Assembly: GCA_025210525.1 (NCBI GenBank)
Contig: JAOARP010000020.1
Location: 62,001-126,000 of the forward strand
Direction of reading: 5' to 3'
DNA length: 64,000 bases
Source of the DNA: Marinisporobacter sp.
GTDB lineage: Bacteria; Bacillota; Clostridia; Peptostreptococcales; Thermotaleaceae
Shown here: piece after piece, positions 59,198 to 64,000 of the stretch
How positions within the stretch are numbered: position 1 is the first letter of the stretch
Layout of the letters: each line of letters starts with the position of its first letter
The notes under the pieces: model-generated
The model's database searches: none
What the model was told of the DNA's origin: nothing
Seen by the model: only the letters and a program-made list of their open reading frames with translations
Translations under genes and position numbers: made by a program

Positions 59198-59989
59198 ATG
59201 TTAGCAGCAATTATGAGCAAAGCCAAAAAAATTGTCATTAAGATAGGGAGTAATACTTTAGCAAATGAAGATGGAACCATTAATAAAGATTTTTTAGAAA
59301 AGTTTGGTGAACAAATAAATTTTTTAAGGGATCAGGGAAAAGAAATTGTTATTGTATCTTCTGGAGCAAGAATAGCTGGGGTAGGAACAATAGGTAAATG
59401 GATGAGAAAAGGAGATATCCATTATAAACAGGCTTTATGTGCTATTGGACAAGTGGAATTAATGGATTCTTATAGACAAGTTTTTAGTAAGTATGATATT
59501 CATATTGGACAAATGCTTTTAACTAGAGAGGATTTATCAGATGCTAATCGGACTTTAAATATCAGAAATACGTTGTTTACTTTAATTGATGAAGGGGTTA
59601 TTCCTATTATCAATGAAAATGATACAGTAAGTGTTGCTGAAATAAAAATCGGAGATAATGATACCCTAGCAGCCCTTACAGCTAACCTTTGGGATGCAGA
59701 TTTATTGATTATGTTTAGTGATATTGATGGTGTATATGATAAAAATCCGAAGGAATATAAAGATGCAAAATTTCTTGAACAAATTACAGATATTGATGGA
59801 CTCTTAGAAATCATTGAAATGGGGAAAGTCAATGAATTTGGAACAGGAGGAATTGCTACGAAGATTGAGGCGGCTCGTAAGGTGAATACTTATGGTATTC
59901 CAATGATTTTAACAAATGGAAAAAAAGAAAATATTTTATTAAACTTATTAGAGGGAACAGAAAGGGCAACTTTATTTATTTCAAAATAA
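59198..59989 (+). CDS. proB: Glutamate 5-kinase (without PUA domain)
   Basis: ProB phosphorylates glutamate, the feedback-controlled first step of proline synthesis. The 263-residue product is an amino-acid-kinase domain only: KKIVIKIGSNTLANEDG, IVSSGARIAGVG, PIINENDTVSVAEIKIGDNDTLAA, MFSDIDGVYDKNP and GTGGIATKIEAARK. The C-terminal PUA domain of E. coli and B. subtilis ProB (about 365 residues) is absent, and the stop is followed by a terminator, so this is a natural short form rather than a truncation. GAGGGAT precedes the ATG. The order proA-proB is reversed relative to Bacillus. Confidence 0.96.
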   Translation: MLAAIMSKAKKIVIKIGSNTLANEDGTINKDFLEKFGEQINFLRDQGKEIVIVSSGARIAGVGTIGKWMRKGDIHYKQALCAIGQVELMDSYRQVFSKYDIHIGQMLLTREDLSDANRTLNIRNTLFTLIDEGVIPIINENDTVSVAEIKIGDNDTLAALTANLWDADLLIMFSDIDGVYDKNPKEYKDAKFLEQITDIDGLLEIIEMGKVNEFGTGGIATKIEAARKVNTYGIPMILTNGKKENILLNLLEGTERATLFISK

Positions 59990-60030
59990 AATATCACCTA
60001 GCTATAACTATAGCTAGGTGATATTTTGTA
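59988..60030 (+). terminator. Long perfect hairpin after proB
   Basis: Bases 59988-60005 and 60010-60027 form an 18-bp perfect stem (starting AAAATATCACC, ending GGTGATATTTT) with loop AACT. The A/T-rich ends let it work in both directions. It overlaps the proB stop codon. Confidence 0.9.
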
Positions 60031-60068: not shown

Positions 60069-60077
60069 TGATATAAT
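60069..60077 (+). promoter_or_regulatory. Extended -10 promoter of the steA-steB gene set
   Basis: TGaTATAAT (TG 60069-60070, TATAAT 60072-60077) lies 72 bases before the steA ATG, with no good -35 hexamer. The position after the proB terminator supports a separate transcription unit. Confidence 0.5.
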
Positions 60078-60149
60078 AAGCTTTGTGAAGTTTTGGTATT
60101 ATTTATGAAAAATGAGTAATACTAAAGAAAAAACAACTGGAGGAAATAT

Positions 60150-61298
60150 ATGTTAACCACAGGCATTGCAAGAATTGATAAAAAAACAAAAGAACTTGTC
60201 AAAAGGTTAAATCCAGGAGAAATTGCAGTGATCAATCATAAAGATATAGATGAAGTAGCAGCAAATTCTTTAGTTCTGTGTAAACCATGTATGGTGATTA
60301 ATGCAGCACAGTCTATTAGTGGAAGATATCCTAACTTAGGACCTGAGATATTAGAAAAAGCAGGAATTCCTATTTTAGATCATGTAGGAGATGAGGTTTT
60401 CTCTAAAATTAAAGAAGGAAATTCTTTAGAAATTAGAGAAAATAAACTATATATGGATGAAGAATGCATTGGAAATGGGAACCTATTGACAAAAGAATTA
60501 ATTAAGAAAAAATTAGAAGAAACGAGTGAAAATTTTCAATTTGAATTAGATAAATTTATTGAAAATACACTAGAGTATGCTAAAAAAGAAAAGGACATGC
60601 TTTTGGGAAATTTAAAGATTCCCCAAGTAAGTACAAGATTTAAAGGAAGACATACTTTGGTTGTTGTAAGAGGGCAAAACTATAAGGAAGATTTACATGC
60701 TATAAAATCATATATTGAGGAGTTTAATCCAATCCTTATTGGTGTTGATGGTGGTGGTGATGCTCTTATGGAGTGTGGATACATTCCTGACATGATTGTA
60801 GGGGATATGGATAGTGTTTCAGATGAATGCTTAAAGGCTTGTAAGGAAATAGTTGTACATGCTTATCGTGATGGGCGAGCACCAGGACTAAAAAGAATTG
60901 AAGAACTAGGTCTTAAAAGTATCGTATTTCCAGCCCCAGGAACGAGTGAGGATATTGCTATGCTCCTTGCTTTTGACAATGAGACAGAGCTTATTGTAGC
61001 AGTAGGAACCCATTCAAATATGGTTGATTTTCTTGAAAAAGGAAGAAAAGGAATGGCGAGTACTTTTCTTGTTAGATTAAAGGTTGGATCAAAGCTAGTT
61101 GATGCAAAAGGTGTAAATAAATTATATCGAGAAAGTGTGAAATTTAAACACTTTGCAGGACTTGCATTTGGTGCAATGATTCCTATATTTATAGTGGGAG
61201 CCTTATCCCCTACCGTTCAGCAGCTATTTAAATTATTTCTTATAAAATTAAAATTTGTCTTTCCAATGGAATTTTTAGGGAGGTATCACATTTGGTAA
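60150..61298 (+). CDS. steA: SteA-like protein (thiamin-pyrophosphokinase-like fold, membrane anchored)
   Basis: The 382-residue product belongs to the COG4825/SteA family. The N-terminal region (about 1-150) contains LNPGEIAVINHKDIDEVAANSLV and INAAQSISGRYPN. A central thiamin-pyrophosphokinase-like catalytic core (about 170-300) has LVVVRG, GVDGGGDALMECGYIPDMIVGDMDSVSDE and APGTSEDIAMLLAF. A C-terminal TM helix follows (FAGLAFGAMIPIFIVGAL). In Corynebacterium, SteA forms a divisome-associated complex with SteB that controls cell-wall hydrolases. The enzymatic activity is unknown. It overlaps the next gene by 7 bases, matching a SteA-SteB pair. Confidence 0.88.
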   Translation: MLTTGIARIDKKTKELVKRLNPGEIAVINHKDIDEVAANSLVLCKPCMVINAAQSISGRYPNLGPEILEKAGIPILDHVGDEVFSKIKEGNSLEIRENKLYMDEECIGNGNLLTKELIKKKLEETSENFQFELDKFIENTLEYAKKEKDMLLGNLKIPQVSTRFKGRHTLVVVRGQNYKEDLHAIKSYIEEFNPILIGVDGGGDALMECGYIPDMIVGDMDSVSDECLKACKEIVVHAYRDGRAPGLKRIEELGLKSIVFPAPGTSEDIAMLLAFDNETELIVAVGTHSNMVDFLEKGRKGMASTFLVRLKVGSKLVDAKGVNKLYRESVKFKHFAGLAFGAMIPIFIVGALSPTVQQLFKLFLIKLKFVFPMEFLGRYHIW

Positions 61299-62164
61299 TT
61301 AATTTAAAGTATTATGTCATAACAATCGTTGCAATATTTTTAGCAATAGGAATAGGAATATTTATAGGCATCATGTTAGATGGACAAGATTTAATTGTAG
61401 CGCAACAAAAAGAAATTGTTTCTCAACTTGAAAGTAAATTTGATGAATTTAAAATAAAGCAGGATAGTTTGCAGGAAAAAATTGACGTATTGAATCTAGA
61501 AAAGGATAAAAATGAAAAGTTTTTGAATAGTATATATCCAGAATTTGTAGAAGATCAATTAAAAGATTTAAACGTTATTGTTTTAGAAACTAGTGAACAT
61601 TATGATTATTCAGGAATTAATGATGCCTTTAAAAAAGCAGGTGTAAGTGGTGTAACAAATATGATTATGAAAGAGGGAAATAGAGAAGAAATAGTAGCAA
61701 TAGCACAAGAGTTTGGTATACCAGAGACGTCAGAAGATTTAGAAGAACAAATTGTAAAGAAGTTTTGTGATGTATTAGTTTCTGGAAATGATAAAGCTTT
61801 TATAGAAAAGTTAAAAGAAAAGAAAATTATTGATTATACAGATGATTTCTTTGTACCAGCTGATTACATTGTTATAGCAGGAGGCAGTATTGATAAGAAC
61901 CAAGGAATGTTGAATAAATTTGATAAAACGATTATCAACTATATAAAAAGTAAAAACGTTCCTATTATGGCAGTTGAAAAGTTAGAAGTTGCGTATTCTA
62001 ATATAAGTGAATACAAAAAACTTAGAATATCTACAGTAGATAATGTAGATACAGTCATAGGAAAAATCTCTATGCTAATGGTAGTTAGCGGTCAAGAGGG
62101 GCATTTTGGAGAAAAAGAAACAGCAGATAATTTAGTTCCAGAAGGATTTATAACAGTAGACTAG
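61292..62164 (+). CDS. steB: SteB-like / MctB-family (copper transporter-like) membrane protein
   Basis: The TTG start at 61292 (LVINLKYYVITIVAIFLAIGIG) follows AGGGAGGT at 61277-61284 and overlaps the steA stop. The 290-residue product has one N-terminal TM helix (about 7-28: YYVITIVAIFLAIGIGIFIG), a coiled coil (about 36-75), and an external alpha/beta domain (YIVIAGGSIDKNQ, VPIMAVEK). This is the pattern of the MctB/DUF3186 family, named for mycobacterial copper transport. In corynebacteria the SteA partner SteB is of this family and acts in cell separation. Given the steA neighbour, a division role is more likely than copper transport. Confidence 0.82.
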   Translation: MVINLKYYVITIVAIFLAIGIGIFIGIMLDGQDLIVAQQKEIVSQLESKFDEFKIKQDSLQEKIDVLNLEKDKNEKFLNSIYPEFVEDQLKDLNVIVLETSEHYDYSGINDAFKKAGVSGVTNMIMKEGNREEIVAIAQEFGIPETSEDLEEQIVKKFCDVLVSGNDKAFIEKLKEKKIIDYTDDFFVPADYIVIAGGSIDKNQGMLNKFDKTIINYIKSKNVPIMAVEKLEVAYSNISEYKKLRISTVDNVDTVIGKISMLMVVSGQEGHFGEKETADNLVPEGFITVD

Positions 62165-62175
62165 GAGTTGATTAA

Positions 62176-62862
62176 ATGTCGAAGTACGTGACGGTTTTAG
62201 TACCCGCTTATAATGAGGGGGATAGAATAAAGTCTACTATAGATGCAATGAACGCTTCAAAATATGTAGATCAAATAGTAATTATAGATGATGGTTCAAA
62301 AGATAATACATATGATGTGGCAAAAGCTACAAATGCTAAGGTCTATCGATTAGATGAAAATAAAGGAAAAGGCTTTGCATTAAGCTTTGGGATAGAAAAG
62401 GTATATAAGGAAAGTCATGTTATTGCTTTTTTAGACGGAGATATTGGGAAAACAGCATTAGAAATAGATAACCTAATTTTACCTATCCTAGAAGACCAAG
62501 CAGATGTTACTATAGCAAGATTTCCAGCAGCAAAGAAAAAGGGTGGATTTGGGCTCGTTAAAAATCTTGCAAAATATGGTGTGAAATTGTATACAGGACA
62601 AACCATATATACTTCTTTATCAGGACAAAGAGTTTTTAAGACAGAGGTACTTAAAAGATTTAAAGAAATCCCTTCAGATTATGGGGTTGAGGTAGGAATG
62701 ACTATTGATATTTTAAATATGGGATATAGAATCAAAGAAGTTGATGTAACTATGACCCATAGAGAGACAGGAAGGGACTTTAAAAGCTTTGTTCATAGGG
62801 GCAAACAGTTTTATCAAATATTATTAACATTACTTAGAAAGAGAAAAGAGGTGACAAAGTAA
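62176..62862 (+). CDS. Family 2 glycosyltransferase
   Basis: The 228-residue cytosolic GT-A enzyme starts VTVLVPAYNEGDRIKSTID, with IVIIDDGSKDNTYDVA for the nucleotide and the metal motif FLDGDIGK (DxD-like). ENKGKGFALSFGI follows the dolichyl-phosphate-mannose-synthase-like pattern. No TM helices are present. It probably transfers a sugar to a polyprenyl-linked acceptor or donor, but the sugar cannot be told. It lies between steB and a GT4 phosphosugar transferase gene, overlapping the latter by one base. Confidence 0.88.
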   Translation: MSKYVTVLVPAYNEGDRIKSTIDAMNASKYVDQIVIIDDGSKDNTYDVAKATNAKVYRLDENKGKGFALSFGIEKVYKESHVIAFLDGDIGKTALEIDNLILPILEDQADVTIARFPAAKKKGGFGLVKNLAKYGVKLYTGQTIYTSLSGQRVFKTEVLKRFKEIPSDYGVEVGMTIDILNMGYRIKEVDVTMTHRETGRDFKSFVHRGKQFYQILLTLLRKRKEVTK

Positions 62863-63674
62863 TGTTAATAAAATTTTCTTCTTTATTTTTAGGTTTTGTT
62901 TTTGCTAAATTCATGATTCCTATGTTTATGAATCTATTATATGAGACAGAGTGTGTTAAAAGTAATTACAAGGGTGAGAATATTCCTGTAGGAATGGGGC
63001 TTATATTTATTCCTGTAGTAACGGTTCTTGTTATTTTTCTATTGCTTTGTTCCGTTAAAAATAATGTTGTCTATATAGTATTATTCTTAGTAGGAACTTT
63101 AGGTATGGGATTGGCTGGATTATTAGATGATTTATTAGGTAATAGAAATGTTACAGGATTGAAAGGACATTTTAAAAAGCTATTGAAACTTGAATTGACA
63201 ACAGGCGGTTTTAAAGCTGCTTTCGGAGGCGTATTATCATTAACCATTAGTATAATTATTTCTAACAATATAATAGACATTTTTATGAATACATTAATTA
63301 TCGCTCTTTTTACTAATTTTATAAATCTATTAGATTTACGACCAGGTAGAGCGTTAAAAGGATTTTTAGTCACGGGTATTATTTTAGTCCTAAGTCCTAT
63401 TTATGAAGAATTTTGTTTCCTAATGATGGGACTAATGGGGTGTGTATTGGCTTATATTCCATATGATTTAAAAGCAAAATCTATGATGGGAGATGTAGGT
63501 TCTAATATTTTAGGTATTTCTCTAGGAATCGTGTGTAGCAGCTTAGGTTTTTCCACAAGAATGATTGCTTTAGGATTTTTAATATTACTACATCTTTATA
63601 CGGAGAAGTATTCTTTAACAAAAACTATTGAAAAAGTAAAAATATTAAAATATCTTGATGAAATAGGTAGATAA
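62862..63674 (+). CDS. GT4/MraY-WecA-like polyprenyl-phosphate phosphosugar transferase (variant)
   Basis: The 270-residue polytopic membrane protein is related to MraY/WecA/TagO, which attach a phospho-N-acetylhexosamine to undecaprenyl phosphate. Conserved elements: GLAGLLDDLLGNRNVTGLKGHFK (the DD motif), and MMGDVGSNILGISLG matching the GD-GS-LG motif. The usual N-x-DG-x-DGLA loop is replaced by NLLDLRPGRALKG, and the protein is shorter than MraY (about 320). It has about eight or nine helices. Its start codon overlaps the GT2 stop. A terminator overlaps its own stop. Confidence 0.85.
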   Translation: MLIKFSSLFLGFVFAKFMIPMFMNLLYETECVKSNYKGENIPVGMGLIFIPVVTVLVIFLLLCSVKNNVVYIVLFLVGTLGMGLAGLLDDLLGNRNVTGLKGHFKKLLKLELTTGGFKAAFGGVLSLTISIIISNNIIDIFMNTLIIALFTNFINLLDLRPGRALKGFLVTGIILVLSPIYEEFCFLMMGLMGCVLAYIPYDLKAKSMMGDVGSNILGISLGIVCSSLGFSTRMIALGFLILLHLYTEKYSLTKTIEKVKILKYLDEIGR

Positions 63675-63690
63675 AATATCTGCCTTTTTC
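63666..63690 (+). terminator. Intrinsic terminator after the GT4 gene
   Basis: GGTAGATA (63666-63673), loop AAA, TATCTGCC (63677-63684, one G-U pair), then TTTTTC. It overlaps the stop codon at 63672-63674. Confidence 0.8.
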
Positions 63691-63741
63691 TTGCATAAAT
63701 AGCTTTTTAAGAATAAATTTTAAATGAAAAGAGGAAATAAA

Positions 63742-64000
63742 TTGATAGGTATAAAAATGGGAAAAGTCATTAAGATTTTAAATAGAGATGATCATAAGAC
63801 GGAAGTTTTAGTAAAAATCAATGATGTAGATTACAAGGCAGTTAACTATAATCGATTAACTGGAGCTATAGATATGGGTGATACTTTATTACTAAATACT
63901 ACGGCAGTAGAATTAAAACTTGGAACGGGTGGATACCACTTTGTTATATCTAATTTAGACAAGGCTGAACAAAATCTATCAGAGGGCGGACATATTATGA
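63742..64000 (+). CDS. N-terminal part of a DUF3866-family protein (3' truncated by the window)
   Basis: The TTG at 63742 is preceded by GAGG at 63731-63734. The frame stays open to the window end. The 86 visible residues include KVIKILNRDDHKTEVLVKIN, KAVNYNRLTGAIDMGDTLLLNT and TAVELKLGTGGYHFVISNL, which match the opening of the DUF3866 family (function unknown, usually about 350 residues). An in-frame ATG at 63757 is an alternative start. It follows the SteA/SteB/GT genes after a terminator. Confidence 0.8.
   Translation, partial: MIGIKMGKVIKILNRDDHKTEVLVKINDVDYKAVNYNRLTGAIDMGDTLLLNTTAVELKLGTGGYHFVISNLDKAEQNLSEGGHIM

Follow-up and report, generated by a model that had tools for sequence, protein, structure and literature searches.

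The closest described relative of the locus presented here is the SteAB-RipA system of Mycobacterium tuberculosis (Rv1697-Rv1698) and Corynebacterium glutamicum (cgp_1603-1604). In M. tuberculosis, SteA and SteB are known to govern the separation of dividing cells. Excerpts of a study of this system (PMC12977500) report that the coiled coil of M. tuberculosis RipA is held by SteB, and that C. glutamicum SteA is stabilized by UDP and GDP, and not by ADP or triphosphates, its ligand being unknown. The same excerpts note that steAB follows spo0A in some Clostridia and suggest a role in sporulation; their results and discussion make no mention of glycosyltransferases beside steAB. A second relative comes from Clostridioides difficile R20291, in which CDR20291_1053-1057 are essential by transposon sequencing (Tn-seq) (PMC12548448). 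These genes are annotated as encoding a pyrophosphokinase (CDR20291_1053, 373 amino acids), an exported protein (1054, 291 amino acids), a family 2 glycosyltransferase (GT2; 1055, 230 amino acids), a glycosyltransferase family protein (1056, 274 amino acids), and a DUF3866 protein (1057, 355 amino acids). The authors assigned the genes no pathway and did not recognize SteAB or a conserved module among them (PMC12548448). Here we compare these systems with a five-gene set at the end of a 64,000-nucleotide stretch of DNA from Marinisporobacter sp. (contig JAOARP010000020.1, positions 62,001 to 126,000), which we call the window and whose numbering is used throughout.

The set encodes SteA, SteB, a GT2 glycosyltransferase, a membrane protein with the MraY fold, and a DUF3866 protein. 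This arrangement is conserved far beyond chance. We hold, with moderate confidence, that the locus encodes a conserved five-component lipid-linked envelope-glycan system, in which SteA handles a nucleotide or nucleotide-sugar and SteB provides a dispensable connection to wall hydrolysis. Both SteAB and the essential cluster of C. difficile had been described before; as far as the literature searched shows, what is new is the five-part module, the connection of the one with the other, and the complementary losses presented below. Searches of the literature by the C. difficile 630 tags CD1215-1217 gave nothing relevant, and those by Streptomyces locus tags gave nothing.

Organization of the five-gene unit

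All five genes lie on the + strand. The first, steA (60150..61298, 382 amino acids), encodes a cytoplasmic core resembling thiamin pyrophosphokinase (TPK) followed by a C-terminal membrane helix. It is followed by steB of the MctB family (61292..62164, 290 amino acids, TTG start), whose product has an N-terminal membrane helix, a coiled coil, and an extracytoplasmic domain; by the gene for a soluble GT2 glycosyltransferase (62176..62862, 228 amino acids); and by the gene for a 270-amino acid membrane protein that forms a distinct subfamily of the PNPT superfamily (62862..63674). The 5' part of the DUF3866 gene (63724..64000; PF12982) runs past the window end, and the gene is complete in the genome beyond it (371 amino acids). 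The steA and steB genes overlap by 7 bp and the GT2 and PNPT genes by 1 bp, with 11 bp between steB and the GT2 gene. The initial annotation had described this same overlapping unit with DUF3866 downstream, and all five genes were found as placed there; the "GT4" of that annotation denotes Pfam Glycos_transf_4 (the PNPT/MraY/WecA superfamily) and not CAZy GT4.

SteA matches the NCBIfam equivalog NF040608 (division_SteA) with 529 bits (cut-off 150) and M. tuberculosis SteA (9hmy) with a phmmer E-value of 4.6e-75. Its C-terminal membrane domain PF12555 scores 48.2 bits (cut-off 26.4), and its hydropathy reaches a maximum of 2.06 at residue 335. SteB matches PF11382 (MctB) over residues 3-283 (E 6.7e-35, 121.7 bits, cut-off 25.6) and has a heptad pattern at residue ~39 by a crude score.

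Co-occurrence of the genes in clostridia

We surveyed 196 genomes of the class and found SteA above the cut-off in 38. Strong matches to the MraY-like profile (E <= 1e-80) occur in exactly these 38 genomes, with the next match at 2e-11, these weaker matches presumably being ordinary PNPT enzymes. DUF3866 is likewise present in exactly the same 38 of 196. The GT2 gene adjoins steA in 37 of the 38 loci, and in the 38th (L068) the contig ends inside steB. The co-conservation of SteA with GT2 and Glycos_transf_4 genes that a neighbourhood survey might reveal is thus strongly borne out (38 of 38 genomes versus 0 of 158; Fisher values ~1e-41, uncorrected for phylogeny). When named genomes were scanned reciprocally, starting from the MraY-like alignment, 80 loci were obtained. 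Enough DNA was available at 69 of them; SteA lies upstream in all 69, and 64 of the 69 have all four genes. Carriers include Geosporobacter, Romboutsia, Terrisporobacter, Clostridioides mangenotii, Peptostreptococcus, Alkaliphilus, Tissierella, Thermoanaerobacterium, Desulfotomaculum relatives, Syntrophomonas, Halonatronum, and Tumebacillus. In Thermoanaerobacterium saccharolyticum (L097), the complete set of five genes is present. At the locus of Tumebacillus flagellatus (L129), no open GT2 frame was recovered upstream of the MraY-like gene; a long fused frame lies there, which suggests a frameshift or an assembly error.

The gene order surrounding the set (tlyA-nadK-recN ... xerD-scpAB) is itself conserved across two phyla. 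This would suit a reading in which steAB acts on a wall hydrolase as in mycobacteria, while the GT2, PNPT-like, and DUF3866 genes are unrelated neighbours left from an old gene order. We regard such a reading as very improbable, as the genes have identical presence and absence in all 196 genomes, including the five genomes of one family (f22: G018, G048, G072, G095, and G117) in which DUF3866 lies away from the locus yet is present in the genome. Because DUF3866 is co-present there although unlinked, conservation of an operon does not suffice to explain the common profile; hitch-hiking within an operon is ruled out by the unlinked DUF3866 together with rearranged loci. Moreover, the four genes remain together where the spo0A/recN context is gone (L098, L102, L114, and others, as well as the window itself), and the GT2 and PNPT genes stay where SteB has been lost.

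In 49 of 59 named loci, spo0A is found upstream of the set at a distance of up to about 12 kb. This position also invites the idea of a sporulation module that serves asymmetric division, engulfment, or the spore envelope; a link to sporulation was suggested in the excerpts of PMC12977500 and raised in the initial annotation. The idea is already contradicted and scarcely credible. Spo0A is present in 162 of the 196 class genomes and in 34 of the 38 carriers; the four carriers without it form one genus (G107, G129, G147, and G164), in which steA directly follows recN. The set is missing from 128 Spo0A-positive genomes, that is, from most of them, it is carried by Actinomycetota, and vegetative cells of C. 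difficile cannot grow without its apparent orthologues. A sporulation-specific gene set was therefore rejected.

The module in Actinomycetota

An actinobacterial match (G196, the genome of L144) defined a second phylum, of which 246 genomes were sampled. SteA was found in 109 and the MraY-like gene in 100, with both in 95. Wherever SteA and the MraY-like gene are on one contig, they share the same strand and lie 0.9-14 kb apart (88 of 88). Of the 109 SteA genomes, 100 also have DUF3866, frequently without linkage to steA. Typical gene orders are tlyA-nadK-recN-steA-steB-GT2-MraY-like-pyrG ... DUF3866-NUDIX-xerD, and steA-steB-MurJ-GT4-(740-amino acid protein)-MraY-like-pyrG, at times with a PMT_2 gene. 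Genes of the MurJ family, GT4, and PMT_2 are added at many of the loci. Judged from general knowledge of these families, a lipid-linked glycan pathway would make use of GT4 enzymes, PMT_2, and a flippase of the MurJ type, and their presence would fit such a pathway. The link between SteAB and lipid-linked glycan enzymes drawn in the initial annotation is hence strengthened, stripped of sporulation, and widened to two phyla: co-conservation in both, with MurJ and GT4 as neighbours, makes a role in a lipid-linked envelope glycan much likelier than accident.

Mycobacteriales, in which SteAB was characterized, have lost the glycan partner genes. At the Mycobacteriales-like loci L194, L196, L197, and L200, a gene of the size of CTP synthase directly follows steB, with no GT2 or MraY-like gene in between; at L194 this gene was identified as pyrG by Pfam.

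Two further features of actinobacterial loci may be recorded. A membrane protein of ~740 amino acids recurs between the GT4/MurJ genes and the MraY-like gene of steAB loci (L227 5092-7332, L221 12128-14422, L144 3-2120, and others), and has no sequence match in Pfam, NCBIfam, or the PDB. In three SteA-less actinobacteria with genomes of 7.8-9.7 Mb (L209, L210, and L211 of G305, G326, and G444), a degenerate MraY-like protein and a GT4 are encoded directly after recN.

The SteA pocket

SteA has a partial match to TPK_catalytic over its DGG.D / GDMDS segment. The pocket motif GVDGGGD...GDMDS (residues 198-222; 60741..60815, + strand) is an intact TPK-type acidic motif; a literature search for the catalytic aspartates of thiamin pyrophosphokinase yielded nothing of use, and the comparison draws on general knowledge and the Pfam alignment. 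All 38 clostridial SteA proteins, and essentially all named ones, have the motif residues without change. Actinobacterial SteA proteins with partner genes keep the DGG.D/GDxDS pocket with few substitutions, and the pockets of M. tuberculosis and C. glutamicum SteA are degenerate. Eight actinobacterial SteA genomes lack both the MraY-like gene and DUF3866, and in seven of these the pocket is degenerate, six of the seven proteins being 60-94% identical to M. tuberculosis SteA; in the eighth (G371) it is intact. The six actinobacterial SteA genomes with DUF3866 in which no MraY-like gene was detected have mostly short contigs and intact pockets throughout. A true thiamin pyrophosphokinase was considered and rejected for SteA, as TIGR01378 scores 44.3 bits, below its cut-off of 76.4.

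We put forward tentatively, as possible rather than likely, a stronger version of our preferred reading. SteA would ancestrally be an enzyme, a TPK-like pyrophosphotransferase, of an unrecognized essential lipid-linked glycan pathway together with the GT2, the divergent MraY-fold transferase, and DUF3866, and the mycobacterial SteAB regulator would be a derived pseudoenzyme with the hydrolase-control arm only. If this is true, the ancestral pathway spans clostridia and most SteA-bearing Actinomycetota and makes a wall or membrane glycan.

Losses of SteB and candidate hydrolases

The reverse losses occur in clostridia. In one family (f21; L061-L065), SteA lacks PF12555 and SteB is absent, while the intact pocket, the GT2, the MraY-like protein, and DUF3866 are kept. 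Defluviitalea phaphyphila (L132) has lost both SteB and the SteA membrane helix and keeps SteA-GT2-PNPT. SteB is also absent from Formimonas (L143), which retains SteA-GT2-PNPT despite this loss, and from L116 and L126; in all three the SteA membrane helix is retained. In the simplest reading, the SteA pocket is tied to the glycan genes, and its membrane helix is tied mainly to SteB.

No RipA-type protein, consisting of a coiled coil and NlpC/P60, was found in the 98.5% complete draft of the window genome, so that such a hydrolase was set aside as the SteB partner there. Its sole NlpC/P60 protein has the architecture SH3x3-NlpC/P60, without a coiled coil by the crude heptad score, and NlpC/P60 is absent altogether from two SteB-positive genomes. 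These observations, too, argue against steAB acting on a wall hydrolase in the mycobacterial manner next to unrelated genes. A coiled-coil M23 peptidase resembling PcsB/EnvC is encoded elsewhere in the window genome (L258, G000:C66) and is a candidate alternative partner of SteB. PcsB/EnvC-like coiled-coil M23 proteins usually serve FtsEX.

The GT2 and MraY-fold proteins

The 270-amino acid protein of the window has no Pfam or NCBIfam match itself, and PF00953 (Glycos_transf_4) was detected in 19 of 34 orthologues (best E 6.7e-10). Its predicted structure (pLDDT 95.9) matches MraY with Z 25.5 over 239 residues and DPAGT1 with Z 23.9, the next unrelated fold among the matches listed having Z of only 6.9. 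Three motifs are conserved in 72 sequences: DD (D89-D90; 63126..63131, + strand) and GD (G210-D211; 63489..63494, + strand), which are invariant, and DLRPGR (D158-R163; 63333..63350, + strand), in which D158, R160, P161, G162, and R163 are invariant. We take D89, D90, and D211 to correspond to the catalytic aspartates of MraY, an equivalence drawn from established knowledge rather than from superposition. DLRPGR stands where MraY and WecA have the DGxDG nucleotide loop, and the alignments show no counterpart of the C-terminal His motif of these two enzymes. With both elements changed, the substrate probably differs from that of MraY/WecA. DUF3866 had no significant match to solved structures.

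The missing DGxDG loop would accord with a reading, modelled on a proposal for M. tuberculosis, in which SteA has no catalytic activity and senses UDP/GDP-type nucleotides arising in general wall synthesis, and the GT2 and PNPT-like proteins only generate or turn over the signal without making a polymer. The stabilization of C. glutamicum SteA by UDP and GDP, but not ADP or triphosphates, in the excerpts of PMC12977500 points the same way. We consider this reading unlikely, because the actinobacterial neighbours of steAB, namely MurJ, GT4, and PMT_2 genes, resemble a polymer pathway, and because a pathway more easily explains the essentiality of the C. difficile genes.

The GT2 matches PF00535 (E 1.2e-21, 77.8 bits), and D87 and D89 of its DxD motif are invariant. 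Among the matches listed for its predicted structure (pLDDT 95), the closest folds are the glucosyl- and mannosyl-3-phosphoglycerate synthases GpgS and MpgS (Z ~24), followed by dolichyl-phosphate mannose synthase (Z 22) and ArnC (Z 20), which places its fold close to enzymes that use NDP-sugars. The lipoteichoic acid of C. difficile carries glyceric acid (PMC10642750), and a narrower version of our preferred reading would have the GT2 act like glucosyl-3-phosphoglycerate synthase and supply a glycosyl-glycerate unit to a glyceric-acid polymer or lipoteichoic acid. Although GpgS and MpgS are the best structural matches, this version is quite unlikely: dolichyl-phosphate mannose synthase is just 2 Z units lower, the set also occurs in Actinomycetota with very different envelopes, and no gene link to lipoteichoic acid was found.

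Essentiality and phenotypes in C. difficile

The locus of C. mangenotii (L079) has the same gene order as CDR20291_1053-1057 and near-identical gene sizes, and we therefore take the C. difficile genes to be orthologues. Repression of the cluster by CRISPR interference (CRISPRi), in which CDR20291_1057 was not targeted, caused strong loss of viability, chains, and short, swollen, phase-bright cells (PMC12548448). Cells depleted of PS-II, a wall polymer, or of PBP2/RodA had a similar appearance (PMC12548448). Of the coupling to division or sporulation that had been proposed from the window, the envelope and division part finds a counterpart in these essential, chaining, and swollen phenotypes of the apparent orthologues; the sporulation part does not hold.

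These data point to an undescribed wall-building pathway behind an older five-gene set, essential for growth in at least one clostridium. An essential envelope system missing from 158 of 196 sampled class genomes is also a possible narrow target. The ligand of SteA was left open in mycobacterial structural work of 2026, as was the C. difficile cluster in essential-gene work of 2025; our comparison indicates that the two questions are the same. In either phylum, SteA is usually accompanied by glycan enzymes, and the SteA proteins studied best come from a lineage that lost these partners.

A proposed mechanism

The following scheme builds on what this analysis observed: the genes and their co-occurrence, the folds, the conserved pocket, and the losses that complement each other. 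On the inner side of the membrane, the PNPT-like protein and the GT2 would work on a polyprenyl- or phospho-linked saccharide. SteA, which its own helix and SteB would anchor to the membrane, would use its acidic TPK-like pocket to bind an intermediate of this pathway (a nucleotide, a nucleotide-sugar, or a pyrophosphate) and would either process or sense it. SteB would relay this state to the outside, where a cell-wall hydrolase may be recruited or licensed. The core function, comprising SteA, GT2, PNPT, and DUF3866, would be glycan-linked, and SteB would be a separable output arm; of the two arms, Mycobacteriales would have retained the one formed by SteA, SteB, and the hydrolase without the glycan arm, and some clostridia the reverse.

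Several points weigh against this proposal. We infer the pathway, its ligand, the sequence of its steps, and any clostridial link to hydrolysis, just as we infer the product, substrate, and chemistry, and hence the biochemical role of the module. Without DGxDG and the His motif, the MraY-fold protein may carry out no sugar-phosphate transfer, and the nearest predicted folds of the GT2 include soluble phosphoglycerate glycosyltransferases besides polyprenyl-phosphate enzymes. The correlation between pocket and partners comes mainly from one clade, Mycobacteriales, so that there may be only one or two independent events. The C. difficile genes are taken as orthologues by their annotation, sizes, and order. 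CRISPRi acts with polarity on the whole operon, so that the C. difficile data do not separate the genes, and the phenotypes resemble those of several envelope depletions.

Genomic context in the window

The proA-proB genes lie upstream of steA. Between proB and steA is a perfect 18-bp inverted repeat, AAAATATCACCTAGCTAT/ATAGCTAGGTGATATTTT, with a 4-nt loop (59988..60027), which was not flagged by a consensus scan. Read from the sequence, this repeat is probably a bidirectional terminator, in which case steA would open a new transcription unit. A promoter scan upstream of steA gave 25 sites against a shuffled background of 23 +/- 4.6, and as there was no excess, no regulatory claim is made. Downstream of DUF3866 in the genome are NUDIX, SpoIIM, XerD, DacF, ScpA, and ScpB genes. 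The spo0A gene of the window genome (G000:C29:304288-304599) is on a contig other than that of the module (G000:C55); the common spo0A-steA linkage thus appears to be broken here, with proA-proB sitting upstream instead.

Comparison with known systems

The C. difficile cluster shares gene order, annotations, and sizes with the module, and differs in having been described only as essential genes of unknown pathway. SteA locally matches the ATP- and metal-binding acidic segment of thiamin pyrophosphokinase, whereas it has another N-terminal domain and scores below the diphosphokinase cut-off. The 270-amino acid protein has its fold (Z 23-25) in common with MraY, WecA, TagO, and DPAGT1 of the PNPT superfamily, as well as the aspartates of the DD and GD motifs; unlike these enzymes, it is shorter, has DLRPGR for DGxDG, and lacks the C-terminal His motif. 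In relation to SteAB-RipA, SteA and SteB are homologous, adjacent, and identical in domain layout. However, no coiled-coil NlpC/P60 protein of the RipA type was found in the window genome, and the GT2, PNPT-like, and DUF3866 partners missing from Mycobacteriales-like loci are constant companions of the window SteA, whose acidic pocket is intact.

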